This document shows, piece after piece, positions 15,787 to 18,473 of a stretch of DNA of 32,022 nt. A program made the position numbers and the translations under genes. The first letter of the stretch is position 1; the number at the start of each line of letters is the position of its first letter. The stretch spans positions 1-32,022 of the forward strand of contig CABZEU010000002.1 of the NCBI GenBank assembly GCA_902524795.1. Reading direction: 5' to 3'. Under the pieces are notes generated by a model that was not told the DNA's origin, ran no database searches, and saw only the letters and a list, made by a program, of their open reading frames with translations. Source of the DNA: an uncultured Pelagibacteraceae bacterium (lineage in GTDB: Bacteria > Pseudomonadota > Alphaproteobacteria > Pelagibacterales > AG-422-B15).

Positions 15787-17325
15787 ATGATTTATATTGT
15801 AGACTTTGGCTCTCAGGTTACCCAATTAATTGCAAGAAGGGTTCGAGAGGCCAGCGTTTACTGTGAGATTGTAAGCAACACCAATCTTTTGAGTAAAATC
15901 AAAAATATGAAACCAACTGGAATCATATTTTCCGGTGGGCCCGCAAGTGTTCATAAGTCACGTACACCAAAAATTGATCAGAAAATCTTTTCGTTAAATA
16001 TTCCAATACTAGGAATTTGTTACGGAATGCAACTAATAGTGCATCAACTTGGAGGCAAGGTTGAAATATCAAATGAACGTGAATTTGGCAAAACATTAAT
16101 TACGCACACCAATAAAAGTAAGCTCTTTCAAAATATTAGGTTAAAAAAGAAGCAACATTATGTATGGATGAGTCATGGAGACAAAGCAATCAAGTTACCT
16201 AATGATTTTAGGACCATTGCAAAAAGTAAGAACTCTAAATTTGCAGGAATAGAAAACAAAAAACTAAATATTTATGGTCTACAATTTCATCCTGAAGTGG
16301 TTCACACACATCAAGGTGAAAAAATAATTAATAACTTCATAATTAATATTTGTAAAACTAAACCAATATGGAGTATGCAAAACTATCTTAAAACACAAGT
16401 CGCTAAAATAAAGACCAAGGTTGGAAAAAATCATGTCATTTGTGGTTTATCAGGAGGAGTGGACAGTATGGTTACTGCGGCAATAATTTCAAAAGCAATT
16501 AATAAACAATTAACATGCATCTATGTGGATACAGGTTTAATGAGATTGAATGAAACTGAGGAGGTTCAAACTTTGTTCAAAAAGCATTTTAAATCAAAGC
16601 TTATTACAGTGAATGCCAAGAATAGATTCTTCACTTCCCTTAAAGGAGTATCTGATCCAGAAAAAAAACGTAAAATTATCGGAAACTTATTCATAAATAT
16701 ATTCGATACCGAGTCCAAAAAAATCTCTAAAGCAAAATTTTTAGCTCAAGGTACAATCTACCCAGACATAATAGAAAGTCAAAGTTTTCATGGAGGGCCA
16801 ACCTCAGTTATCAAGTCACATCATAATGTTGGAGGTTTGCCTAGAGTAATGAAGCTAGACCTTGTGGAGCCTCTTCAGGAGTTATTTAAGGATGAAGTTC
16901 GTAGACTTGGCAAAGAACTAAAATTACCCAAAGAATTTATACAACGACATCCGTTTCCAGGTCCTGGATTAGGAATTCGAGTATTAAGTGATATTACAAA
17001 AGAAAAAGTACAGATGTTACAACAGGCAGATAAAATATATATTGATGAGATTAAGGCAGCTAATTTATATAAAGAAATTTGGCAGGCTTTTGCAGTTTTA
17101 TTACCTGTTCGAACCGTTGGTGTAATGGGTGACCAAAGGTCATATGAGTTTGTTTGTGGCTTGAGGGCTGTTACCTCTGTTGACGGAATGACTGCTGATT
17201 TTTACCCTTTTAGTGGTGAATTTTTAAGTAAAGTATCAACTCGTATTATAAATGAAGTAAAAGGGATTAATCGCGTCATTTACGATACTACTTCCAAGCC
17301 TCCTGGCACTATTGAGTGGGAATAA
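15787..17325 (+). CDS. guaA: GMP synthase (glutamine-hydrolysing)
   Basis: Converts XMP to GMP using ATP and glutamine-derived ammonia. It has 512 aa. Residues 1-190 form a class I glutamine amidotransferase with nucleophile C78 (GICYGMQ) and the His/Glu pair H168, E170 (LQFHPEV). An ATP-pyrophosphatase domain follows with the PP-loop SGGVDS (222-227), and then the dimerisation/XMP-binding domain ending in the family-typical PPGTIEWE. The start is one base after the TPR stop. Its last 23 bp, stop codon included, are duplicated at 17875-17897, which marks the gene's 3' end as a likely integration site that keeps the gene intact. Confidence 0.98.
   Translation: MIYIVDFGSQVTQLIARRVREASVYCEIVSNTNLLSKIKNMKPTGIIFSGGPASVHKSRTPKIDQKIFSLNIPILGICYGMQLIVHQLGGKVEISNEREFGKTLITHTNKSKLFQNIRLKKKQHYVWMSHGDKAIKLPNDFRTIAKSKNSKFAGIENKKLNIYGLQFHPEVVHTHQGEKIINNFIINICKTKPIWSMQNYLKTQVAKIKTKVGKNHVICGLSGGVDSMVTAAIISKAINKQLTCIYVDTGLMRLNETEEVQTLFKKHFKSKLITVNAKNRFFTSLKGVSDPEKKRKIIGNLFINIFDTESKKISKAKFLAQGTIYPDIIESQSFHGGPTSVIKSHHNVGGLPRVMKLDLVEPLQELFKDEVRRLGKELKLPKEFIQRHPFPGPGLGIRVLSDITKEKVQMLQQADKIYIDEIKAANLYKEIWQAFAVLLPVRTVGVMGDQRSYEFVCGLRAVTSVDGMTADFYPFSGEFLSKVSTRIINEVKGINRVIYDTTSKPPGTIEWE
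17303..17325 (+). repeat. 23-bp direct repeat, copy 1 (guaA 3' end; candidate attL)
   Basis: These 23 bp cover the last seven guaA codons (first one partial) and the TAA stop. They are identical, base for base, to 17875-17897. Identity breaks off immediately on both sides. Confidence 0.9.
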
Positions 17326-17354
17326 ATTAAAAATATAATAAAATCAATGACTTA

Positions 17355-17414
17355 AGATCAAACATTATTTAAAACGATTTGATCTCAATTTTACTCTTAC
17401 TAATTTTGATTAGT
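17355..17414 (+). terminator. Two inverted repeats downstream of guaA
   Basis: First: AGATCAAA (17355-17362) pairs perfectly with TTTGATCT (17378-17385) across a 15-nt loop. Second: ACTAAT (17399-17404) and ATTAGT (17409-17414) around TTTG. Stems are AT-rich and lack a clean U-tract, so rho-independent termination of the gua operon is possible but weak. They could equally be recombinase or regulator sites of the inserted segment. Confidence 0.3.
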
Positions 17415-17447
17415 TTGAATTTTTAAGGAATAATTGTAGATTTAGAA

Positions 17448-17753
17448 ATGTCCAATTTAATTGAATGTATAGATTGCGGTCATCAAGTTTCAAAACGAGC
17501 AGAGACATGTCCAAAGTGTGGTGCTCCAGTTGATGATGGATCAGTAAAATACTTTGAAAAAGACTTCAAAGATCCCCGTATCTATAAAAAGGAAGATCCA
17601 AACCAGAAGCTTATAATTGTTATTGTATCTATTGCTGTTTTCGCTTTTTTAATTTGGGCTGGTTCTACTGATGCCGGAAAAAAAATATGGAATTCAGATT
17701 ACAGTGAATGTAGAGAATATTTCAAGCAATCATATTGTGAAAATAGAGATTAA
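17448..17753 (+). CDS. Zinc-ribbon, single-pass membrane protein
   Basis: A 101-aa protein. At the N-terminus is a zinc ribbon with C7-x2-C10 and C21-x2-C24 (ECIDCGHQ and TCPKCGAP), the usual short 'zinc_ribbon' fold. A charged linker (31-53) leads to one membrane helix at about 55-71 (IIVIVSIAVFAFLIWAG), then a 30-residue tail with C88 and C97 that could form a disulfide if periplasmic. With the basic linker before the helix, the ribbon should be cytoplasmic. It is the only gene between the two guaA-end repeats. Similar ribbon-plus-helix proteins are widespread and mostly uncharacterised; I assign no function. No good ribosome-binding site is close to the ATG. Confidence 0.75.
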   Translation: MSNLIECIDCGHQVSKRAETCPKCGAPVDDGSVKYFEKDFKDPRIYKKEDPNQKLIIVIVSIAVFAFLIWAGSTDAGKKIWNSDYSECREYFKQSYCENRD

Positions 17754-17804
17754 CAATATATTTGCAACATTATTTCCATTAATAATTTCATTAAAAAGAA
17801 AATG

Positions 17805-17826
17805 AAAACTTACACAAAACTTACAC
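17805..17826 (+). repeat. Tandem 11-bp direct repeat (AAAACTTACAC x2)
   Basis: Two exact, adjacent copies at 17805-17815 and 17816-17826, with a period of one helical turn, 49 bp before the second guaA-end copy. Adjacent short direct repeats beside an attachment core resemble arm-type binding sites of tyrosine integrases; that reading is inference. Confidence 0.6.
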
Positions 17827-17874
17827 ACTTTAAAAATAACCTATGTGAGCATTGCTACACAAGGCTTCTACAAA

Positions 17875-17897
17875 CTGGCACTATTGAGTGGGAATAA
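17875..17897 (+). repeat. 23-bp direct repeat, copy 2 (displaced guaA end; candidate attR)
   Basis: Exact copy of the guaA terminus including its stop codon. In the guaA frame it reads GTIEWE-stop but is preceded by unrelated sequence (RLLQT), so it is not part of a longer guaA pseudogene. It lies in a 204-bp non-coding gap (17754-17957). Confidence 0.9.
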
Positions 17898-17957: not shown

Positions 17958-18473
17958 ATGAAAAACTTTTTTTATAAAATTTTTAAATTTTTAAAATCAA
18001 TATTTAAATTAAATTTTACAGATTTTACCTGGATTAAAACAGCAAAATTTATTGAATTAGATAATATAGATGTATCTGAGGATCCAGTAAGACCAGAGCT
18101 TGATCTCGATTGGAGAACCGCACATGATAGAAAAATTTATGGTTTAGAATATAACAATGAAATTGAGGGTATTATGTGTTTAGCATTTACTAAAGATGTT
18201 CCTCATTCAGTAAGAGAATTAGATTTAATGAGCCGACTAGCAGTCTACGAGCAAAATGCTGATACAATTATTGCTTATACTGTATGGTCTAGAAAAAAAG
18301 GGGCGGGTAGAAAAATTATGGAGGAGGCTTTAAAATTTGGAAAGGAGATGGGCTATAAAAGGATTGTTACTCTATCCCCATTGACACCCATAGCCACTCA
18401 TTATCACATTAGAAATGGCGCTAAACTCTTAGGACATAATCCAACAACACAGAATTTCGAATATTCACTATAA
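17958..18473 (+). CDS. GNAT-fold N-acetyltransferase
   Basis: A 171-aa protein. The C-terminal half carries the GNAT acetyl-CoA-binding motif A (SRKKGAGRKIMEEALKFGKEMG, about 113-134, with the R-x-x-G-x-G/A-type turn), followed by a beta strand (RIVTLSPL) and a motif-B-like segment with HIRNGAKLLG. The N-terminus (1-25) is unusually basic and aromatic (MKNFFYKIFKFLKSIFK), an amphipathic helix that may touch the membrane. A TATAAT at 17946-17951 sits only 6 bp before the ATG, with no clear -35. It lies just beyond the second guaA-end repeat, so in the uninterrupted ancestor it would follow guaA directly. Substrate unknown. Confidence 0.72.
   Translation: MKNFFYKIFKFLKSIFKLNFTDFTWIKTAKFIELDNIDVSEDPVRPELDLDWRTAHDRKIYGLEYNNEIEGIMCLAFTKDVPHSVRELDLMSRLAVYEQNADTIIAYTVWSRKKGAGRKIMEEALKFGKEMGYKRIVTLSPLTPIATHYHIRNGAKLLGHNPTTQNFEYSL

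Follow-up and report, generated by a model that had tools for sequence, protein, structure and literature searches.

The DNA analysed here, referred to as the window, is a stretch of 32,022 nucleotides (contig CABZEU010000002.1) from an uncultured Pelagibacteraceae bacterium. Directly behind guaA, the gene for GMP synthase, it carries a 572-bp segment bracketed by two copies of the last 23 bp of the gene. This segment is a site-specific insertion. We consider it likely to be a minimal integrative cassette that lacks an integrase of its own, is served by one in trans, and belongs to a system of integron-like arrays at guaA.

The end of guaA is duplicated around a small module

The 23-bp core, CTGGCACTATTGAGTGGGAATAA, forms the end of guaA (17303-17325) and recurs exactly at 17875-17897, a distance of 572 bp from start to start. 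A preliminary description of the window had reported this duplication, and repeat searches of the window and of its source assembly confirmed it. The assembly (1.11 Mb; 1,110,254 bp, 80% complete) contains just these two copies when up to two mismatches are allowed, and a reversed control pattern of the core gave zero copies. Among the direct repeats listed for the window, the core is the sole family with an exact run of 23; by rough arithmetic, ~1e-4 exact 23-mers would be expected by chance in 32 kb. A search of the window for transfer RNA (tRNA) genes returned none.

The bracketed segment had been described as small, with a single open reading frame (ORF) and no integrase. This holds: one good ORF is present (17448-17753), and neither the ORF list nor Pfam revealed an integrase among the ORFs of at least 60 aa within 17326-17897. 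The N-terminus of the predicted 101-aa protein is a zinc ribbon (Pfam Zn_Ribbon_1, 8e-6, 25.9 bits with a cut-off of 25), and a hydrophobic stretch was seen by eye after it. In 53 genomes of the family this protein was found in the window and in G046 (N-terminal 41 residues) and nowhere else, in both cases behind guaA. A special repeat site, two copies of ACTTACACA with an 11-bp period (17808-17827), precedes the distal core alone.

The same site is empty, differently occupied or stacked in relatives

By their record titles, the nearest relatives are Pelagibacteraceae single-cell or metagenome assemblies. A guaA 3' end was obtained from 36 of the 53 family genomes, these being the long guaA matches plus G049. 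G017 and G043 (partial guaA matches) and some genomes with weak matches were left out of the tally, and two of the 36 loci (G028 and G045) have less than 500 bp downstream. Eighteen of the 36 loci hold one to three distal cores each, 24 copies in total within 5 kb, and the same search gave no match in 390,281 bp of control sequence taken from farther downstream and from the reverse strand. The count includes G037, which may be something else: its distal copy has no clear repeat pair and encloses a gene found directly behind guaA in other clades. It excludes G016, in which a degraded core lies at 178 bp with 4 mismatches.

Four relatives (G015, G039, G031 and G022) have an empty site, where guaA continues directly into the sequence found beyond the window's distal copy. 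These loci match the flank behind that copy at 85-87% over 300 bp and the start of the module at 54-61%. Different modules occupy the site in G035, G038, G034, G024 and others, and the flanks past the distal copies of these four are 89-96% to empty G039. Empty alleles leading from guaA straight to the GNAT side and alternative cargo had both been named as support in the preliminary description, and both exist. Together they exclude the pattern offered there as a refutation, one arrangement fixed in all relatives with no empty allele.

Other relatives carry tandem arrays, with three modules in G002 and G049 and two in G046 and G011; the window has one. The 24 family modules range from 355 to 2438 bp, all are without an integrase, and the main ORF is oriented like guaA in 23 of them. 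A tree of the guaA region was made by a quick method and serves as a guide only, with G045 and G046 on long branches. The guaA contig of G045 (G045:C1, L107) ends 471 bp past guaA, where a type I restriction M gene appears, by eye, to have just begun; a separate contig of this genome (G045:C32, L216) has a right-end site followed by a 95-aa cassette.

guaA endings are exchanged at five loci

At five informative loci (G001, G012, G008, G024 and G038), guaA does not end as it does in empty relatives; instead, their ending is on the distal copy, next to a flank that also matches them. These are the loci for which an empty relative with a different ending could be compared. In G008, guaA ends in TAA and the distal copy in TAG, as in empty G003 (flank 92.6%). 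In G001 and G012, guaA has GGGAATAA and the distal copy has GGGAGTAA, like the empty loci of G041 and G025 (flank identities of 95.8% and 95.4%). G038 has GGGAGTGA at guaA and GGGAATAA at the distal copy, with a flank 94.3% to G039, and G024 has GGGAGTAG at guaA and GGAAATAA plus one further change at the distal copy (flank 96.3%). Among empty loci of the second clade the ending varies, G030 having TAG.

Because the endings are swapped at these loci, the point of exchange lies upstream of the last codon. This position is consistent with the core GAGTGGGA at which the island GIsul2 is inserted at the 3' end of guaA, as given in the accessible part of the published account (PMC9376610).

A repeat-plus-core site recurs at the right ends of modules

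Most distal copies follow a recurring site of ~70 bp that consists of two repeats with an 11-bp period and then the guaA core. Repeat pairs matching at 8 or more of 9 positions were found at period 11 in 14 of 24 sites and at periods 8-10 and 12-15 in 0 of 24, with a background of 1.0-1.3%. In 43 genomes of the genus, the family repeat motif occurs at nine places, all within ~2.1 kb downstream of guaA. Outside the family (records from the PS1 clade, OCS116, SAR116 and Hyphomicrobiales), the six sites tested all have 8 or more of 9 positions matching at this period too, although their repeat sequences differ. Two more out-of-family copies, L052 and L030, stood outside the period test and have no such repeats by eye. 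L030 is from an unrelated phylum (Omnitrophota) and has its guaA-end copy, with one mismatch, 903 bp behind guaA. We read the right-end repeats as putative arm-type integrase sites.

A model of the site, R1, was built from 19 sequences, one of which is the window, so that its match in the window is by construction. Low-scoring R1 matches to guaA's own core alone were not counted as sites, and neither were marginal matches without a core in G081, G092 and G109 (another family; 5.5e-4 to 8.4e-4). A match in G265 was dropped: it has no core and overlaps an integrase gene (P0003) in a stretch without a guaA core. Right-end sites were also seen at or near contig ends (G369 C13, G452 C12, G443 C16, G389 C14 and G404 C1), as if the repeats had broken the assembly, and the arrays there may exceed those seen.

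Behind the guaA core the window has AATCAATGACTTA, which fits what we take to be the consensus of integration host factor (IHF), WATCAANNNNTTR. It lies 16-17 bp behind the core, and at equal offset in G035 and G046. Perfect matches to the consensus occur in 3 of 24 modules (background 1.5%), and matches within one mismatch in 13 of 24 (background 22%). These figures hint weakly at an IHF-like site, and we use it lightly.

Modules move between hosts as units

A 533-bp integrase-free module is common to G008 and G040, with 99.1% identity (528/533) from core to core. In contrast, guaA is 73.0% identical between the two genomes, and what lies past the module is unrelated (52.5%). Because this near-identical module sits in hosts with diverged guaA and unrelated flanks, integrase-free modules move as units. 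Contamination does not easily explain the sharing, since each copy sits within host-specific flanks. Three further cassettes behave similarly: one from a PS1-clade record is 94-96% to two family genomes (guaA 74-75% over the 390 nt available), one is 93.6% between G049 and G001 (guaA 76.8%), and one is 92.8% between G452 and G369 (guaA 66.9%). A less clear case is a 95-aa module in G046 and G049 (93.8%; guaA 87.7%). Mobility without an integrase inside is thus seen for the sister module of G008 and G040; the window's own copy may still be mobile.

It could be argued that homologous recombination across the guaA and GNAT flanks made the differences in cargo, with no site-specific recombination at present. 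Within the close clade, where flanks are conserved at 85-96%, such exchange is possible and would look similar. However, modules are common to hosts with 67-77% guaA, including G008 and G040 with unrelated sequence beyond, and module boundaries coincide with the core and have an arm-like site at most right ends. We therefore regard this explanation as very improbable.

Integrases next to guaA in other lineages

In G345, a 411-aa tyrosine recombinase is encoded directly behind guaA. In 10 of 10 genomes with a strong homolog (E <=1e-43), its gene begins no more than ~300 bp past the stop codon of guaA, and homology alone led to nine of the ten. The E-values for G595 and G586 come from P0001 alone; those for the remaining genomes were obtained with alignment A2, of which these homologs are members. 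Two of the nine further homolog genomes lie outside the class, and all are Pseudomonadota. These lineages thus possess a guaA-adjacent integrase clade. Weaker homologs in the class, in G295 (1.3e-38) and G573 (9.8e-32), fall below the threshold of this count, and the 19 kb of retrieved DNA include no guaA. In a plasmid collection, P0001 and P0005 matched only distant relatives.

Integrase-bearing elements between two cores were found in G345 (7.2 kb), G407 (5.3 kb) and G586 (5.8 kb), with distal cores that have 3 mismatches to the window core. By eye, each has similar repeats at both ends, TTTCCAA in G407 and TTACACA-like in G345 and G586. The integrase-bearing variants anticipated in the preliminary description are thus present in other families, and none was seen in the window's own. 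Further recombinases occur in these elements: G345 has a second tyrosine recombinase (L174:15258-15827), and serine-recombinase-like ORFs were noticed by eye in G586 and G407 (L225; L219).

G024, which belongs to the window's genus, has a 2.4-kb integrase-free insert. Over its first 150 bp this insert is 87.3% identical to the G345 element at the left end, as against 60.2% for guaA, and the likeness links the integrase-free and integrase-bearing guaA inserts. It would also fit another origin of the window's segment, as the dead remnant of a larger integrase-bearing guaA island that lost its integrase and most of its cargo in place and is immobile. The 5-7 kb elements of other families, the truncated integrases in G528 and G207 and an apparent 178-bp remnant in G016 agree with such decay. 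On the other hand, an integrase-free module travelled whole between diverged hosts, decay in place alone would not predict that all 24 family modules lack an integrase over the size range given above, and the repeats and core of the window are intact. We consider a dead remnant unlikely. The preliminary description had offered both a deletion remnant and a very small non-autonomous element; the latter fits better in view of the module that moved between G008 and G040, and the two are not fully separable for the window's own module.

Proposed mechanism and observations that weigh against it

The window's cassette would consist of one gene, for a zinc-ribbon/membrane protein, followed by a recombination site of two arm-type repeats, a spacer and a guaA-like core. 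Presumably as a circle, it would have entered through a tyrosine integrase supplied in trans, and the strands would have been exchanged within the GAGTGGG at the 3' end of guaA. The incoming DNA would have restored the last codons of the gene and displaced the original end to the distal side. Further rounds of insertion at guaA would give tandem arrays, probably with the newest module nearest the gene, and the mostly co-oriented cassette genes would probably be read through from guaA. A visiting integrase of the guaA-adjacent clade may serve the cassettes. Insertion of a cassette circle at a bare guaA end is proposed because the attR site of GIsul2 alone recombines with a bare guaA attB site, according to the accessible part of that study (PMC9376610).

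Several observations weigh against such a trans-served cassette. Across the 53 family genomes, no PF00589 match lies within 60 kb of guaA, the sole such place on a family guaA contig being a Xer-like gene in G030 ~66 kb away, and no member of the guaA-adjacent integrase clade was found. Six non-Xer integrase stretches of the family (in G031, G050, G049, G007 and G018) have no guaA core. Of the six integrases, that of G050 is the only one to match P0001, and weakly (22%, 7e-5); that of G007 matches the second G345 recombinase (P0002) at 34%. The window's own genome (G000, 80% complete) has two integrase-family genes, both Xer-like by size and score and both on other contigs.

The sites themselves are also uneven. 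Six of the 24 distal sites score below 7 of 9 at period 11, the left end of the window module has no clear arm repeats, and the distal copy of G037 ends in TGA, differing from related empty loci. R1 sites are patchy: of 385 genomes scanned in the class, 13 gave a match, one of them the window's own, and a scan of the order (217 genomes) gave E <1e-8 in 14 genomes, every one of them a member of the window's family. guaA is present in 6 of the 14 stretches fetched around class R1 matches, the others being mostly contig ends; a location at guaA thus holds for part of the class sites and is not demonstrated for every one. Among the genomes seen, no second one carries the window's exact module. Its left part is 89.4% over 179 columns to the first module of G046 and its middle 59.1%, and with the left part alone alike the module may be a mosaic or decayed.

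The Xer-like genes raise the possibility that host XerC and XerD act on the guaA core, like elements that use dimer-resolution enzymes, as the only integrase-family genes found in G000 resemble xerC and xerD. Nevertheless, the repeats with 11-bp spacing lie ~50 bp from the core, and dedicated integrases are found at guaA in other lineages. Such spaced repeats are typical of phage-type integrases. Action of the host enzymes is scarcely credible, and an integrase supplied in trans by a visitor remains our preferred explanation.

A phage origin was considered and rejected. At the limits used, none of 50,697 phage records matched the DNA of the module, its ORF or the integrase of G345, and the right-end stretch gave one 23-base match at chance level (E 0.9). 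In viral contigs, the pattern TTACACAAAACTTACACAC had 0 exact matches and a peptide-pattern search gave no P0001 relatives; the 101-aa ORF had five weak relatives (37-70% over short stretches). The guaA-end pattern occurs in 13 stretches of viral contigs, six of which are guaA 3' ends (58-69% over the last 70 residues). No distal copy was found in these six, three of which have just 0.3-2.4 kb downstream. The six contigs (L135, L137, L140, L141, L142 and L145) are possibly prophage or island borders.

Features of the window

Table 1. Features at the guaA locus, in window coordinates
Feature	Position	Strand	Basis or remark
guaA (GMP synthase), integration target; 3' end is the attachment site	15787-17325	+	ORF; Pfam GATase and GMP_synt_C
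guaA-proximal 23-bp core, includes GAGTGGGA, the GIsul2 guaA core in the accessible part of PMC9376610	17303-17325	+	
Inserted 572-bp module	17326-17897	+	Occupied in the window, missing in four relatives (guaA directly to GNAT leader)
IHF-consensus-like AATCAATGACTTA	17342-17354	+	Motif scan; weak
Cargo ORF, 101 aa	17448-17753	+	ORF; Pfam Zn_Ribbon_1
Two direct repeats ACTTACACA, 11-bp period, putative arm-type integrase sites	17808-17827	+	
Complete right-end site (repeats, spacer, core)	17809-17897	+	Model R1, 80 bits, E 1.7e-22 (match by construction)
Distal 23-bp core; informative relatives have the guaA ending of the host itself on this copy	17875-17897	+	
GNAT-family gene, adjoins guaA in empty-site relatives of the window's clade	17958-18473	+	

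Comparison with known systems

The guaA modules resemble GIsul2 in that the guaA core contains GAGTGGGA; as for guaA-targeted integrative elements in general, empty and occupied alleles both occur among the window's relatives. In contrast, GIsul2 is a single ~15-kb resistance island of gammaproteobacteria with its integrase in cis, while here there are sub-kilobase single-gene modules in arrays and no such integrase was seen in the host genome. The window's module does not have the integrase inside that guaA elements have; with a core at both ends and no recombinase inside, it is like the cis-mobilizable elements (CIMEs) and the unit CR2-sul2. CR2-sul2 is described, in the accessible part of the same report, as an integrase-less unit between two cores that is moved by an integrase elsewhere in the island (PMC9376610).

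Small cassettes at tRNA ends have been published for two other groups. In the portions of these studies available to us, the Methylophilaceae island fGI-2 has repeats of the last 20 bp of tRNA-Lys and a size of 330 bp-42 kb (PMC10872708), and Actinomarinales have small gene cassettes at tRNAs that are marked by a direct repeat and are exchanged among genera (PMC7771536). The likeness to these islands, as far as those portions go, lies in streamlined aquatic hosts, small cassettes and repeats of the target end. The earlier statement that such elements are rarely described in streamlined marine bacteria is thus only partly right, and small tRNA-end cassettes in streamlined aquatic bacteria, like integrase-less guaA units (CR2-sul2), are already known. 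The difference is that here the target is a protein gene, guaA, the anatomy of the site and a guaA-adjacent integrase clade are resolved, and transfer seems to extend beyond a single order. The literature searched, mostly outside subscription papers, yielded no account of arrays of cassettes at guaA in relatives of SAR11.

Stepwise addition of small cassettes at one site, as in additive islands, is seen here in the arrays of G002, G049, G046 and G011. The ssrA islands of Dehalococcoides are likewise tandem and bounded by repeats of the target end, with an integration module in 16/31 (PMC3146451, accessible part). According to the same partial source they differ from the guaA modules in their serine recombinase, their transfer-messenger RNA target and the ~12-kb size of the vcrABC islands.

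We rejected integron identity for the modules: their arrays have no integrase beside them, and the single-strand fold of 17808-17897 is not unusual (z -1.61 and -1.66 for the two strands). Integron cassettes mostly hold one co-oriented gene with one recombination site at its 3' end and stack behind a fixed target, and the guaA modules share the co-oriented gene, the 3' site and the stacking. Unlike in integrons, a repeat-plus-core site and a guaA target replace attC and attI.

CIMEs and tycheposons are units with attachment sites and without an integrase that stack at one site. No conjugative partner was seen here. Compared to tycheposons, the target is guaA and not a tRNA gene, in keeping with a window devoid of tRNA genes. 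Tycheposon sizes are quoted as 4-200 kb in the accessible part of one study, far above those of the guaA modules (PMC10872708).

Cargo and significance

The cargo of family modules includes a type II restriction-modification pair (G026), a glycosyltransferase (G010), a formyltransferase (G024) and a methyltransferase (G011). Outside the family we found a Fic protein (PS1-clade L015) and an acetyltransferase (SAR116 L022). The cassette of G026 (G026:C13, L105) is 2.07 kb long and has a complete type II pair (C5 methylase and BsuBI/PstI-type endonuclease) and a window-type right-end site; the next cassette starts at the contig end and is 92.5% over 147 columns to that of G001. The insert of L015 (G540), 4.3 kb behind guaA, has a 529-aa Fic protein and, by eye, an 801-aa protein with repeated zinc-finger-like units.

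It is possible, and we suggest it tentatively, that guaA of marine alphaproteobacteria is the platform of a shared integron-like cassette system, in which cassettes pass between orders and SAR11-like hosts without an integrase rely on a visitor. If this is true, each cassette gene would sit behind the guaA frame and borrow its transcription, and restriction systems, Fic proteins, acetyltransferases and small membrane proteins would be swapped one at a time. The guaA docking site is itself a protein-gene counterpart of the tRNA-based cassette islands. With a docking site, a ~90-bp site and a candidate integrase clade in hand, gene exchange can be searched for in single-cell genomes and reads of uncultured cells, and it can also be tested in E. 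coli. Streamlined ocean bacteria are thought to be poor in mobile elements, yet they are variable in gene content. Docking at guaA suggests that minimal genomes may swap single genes without carrying the enzyme that swaps them.

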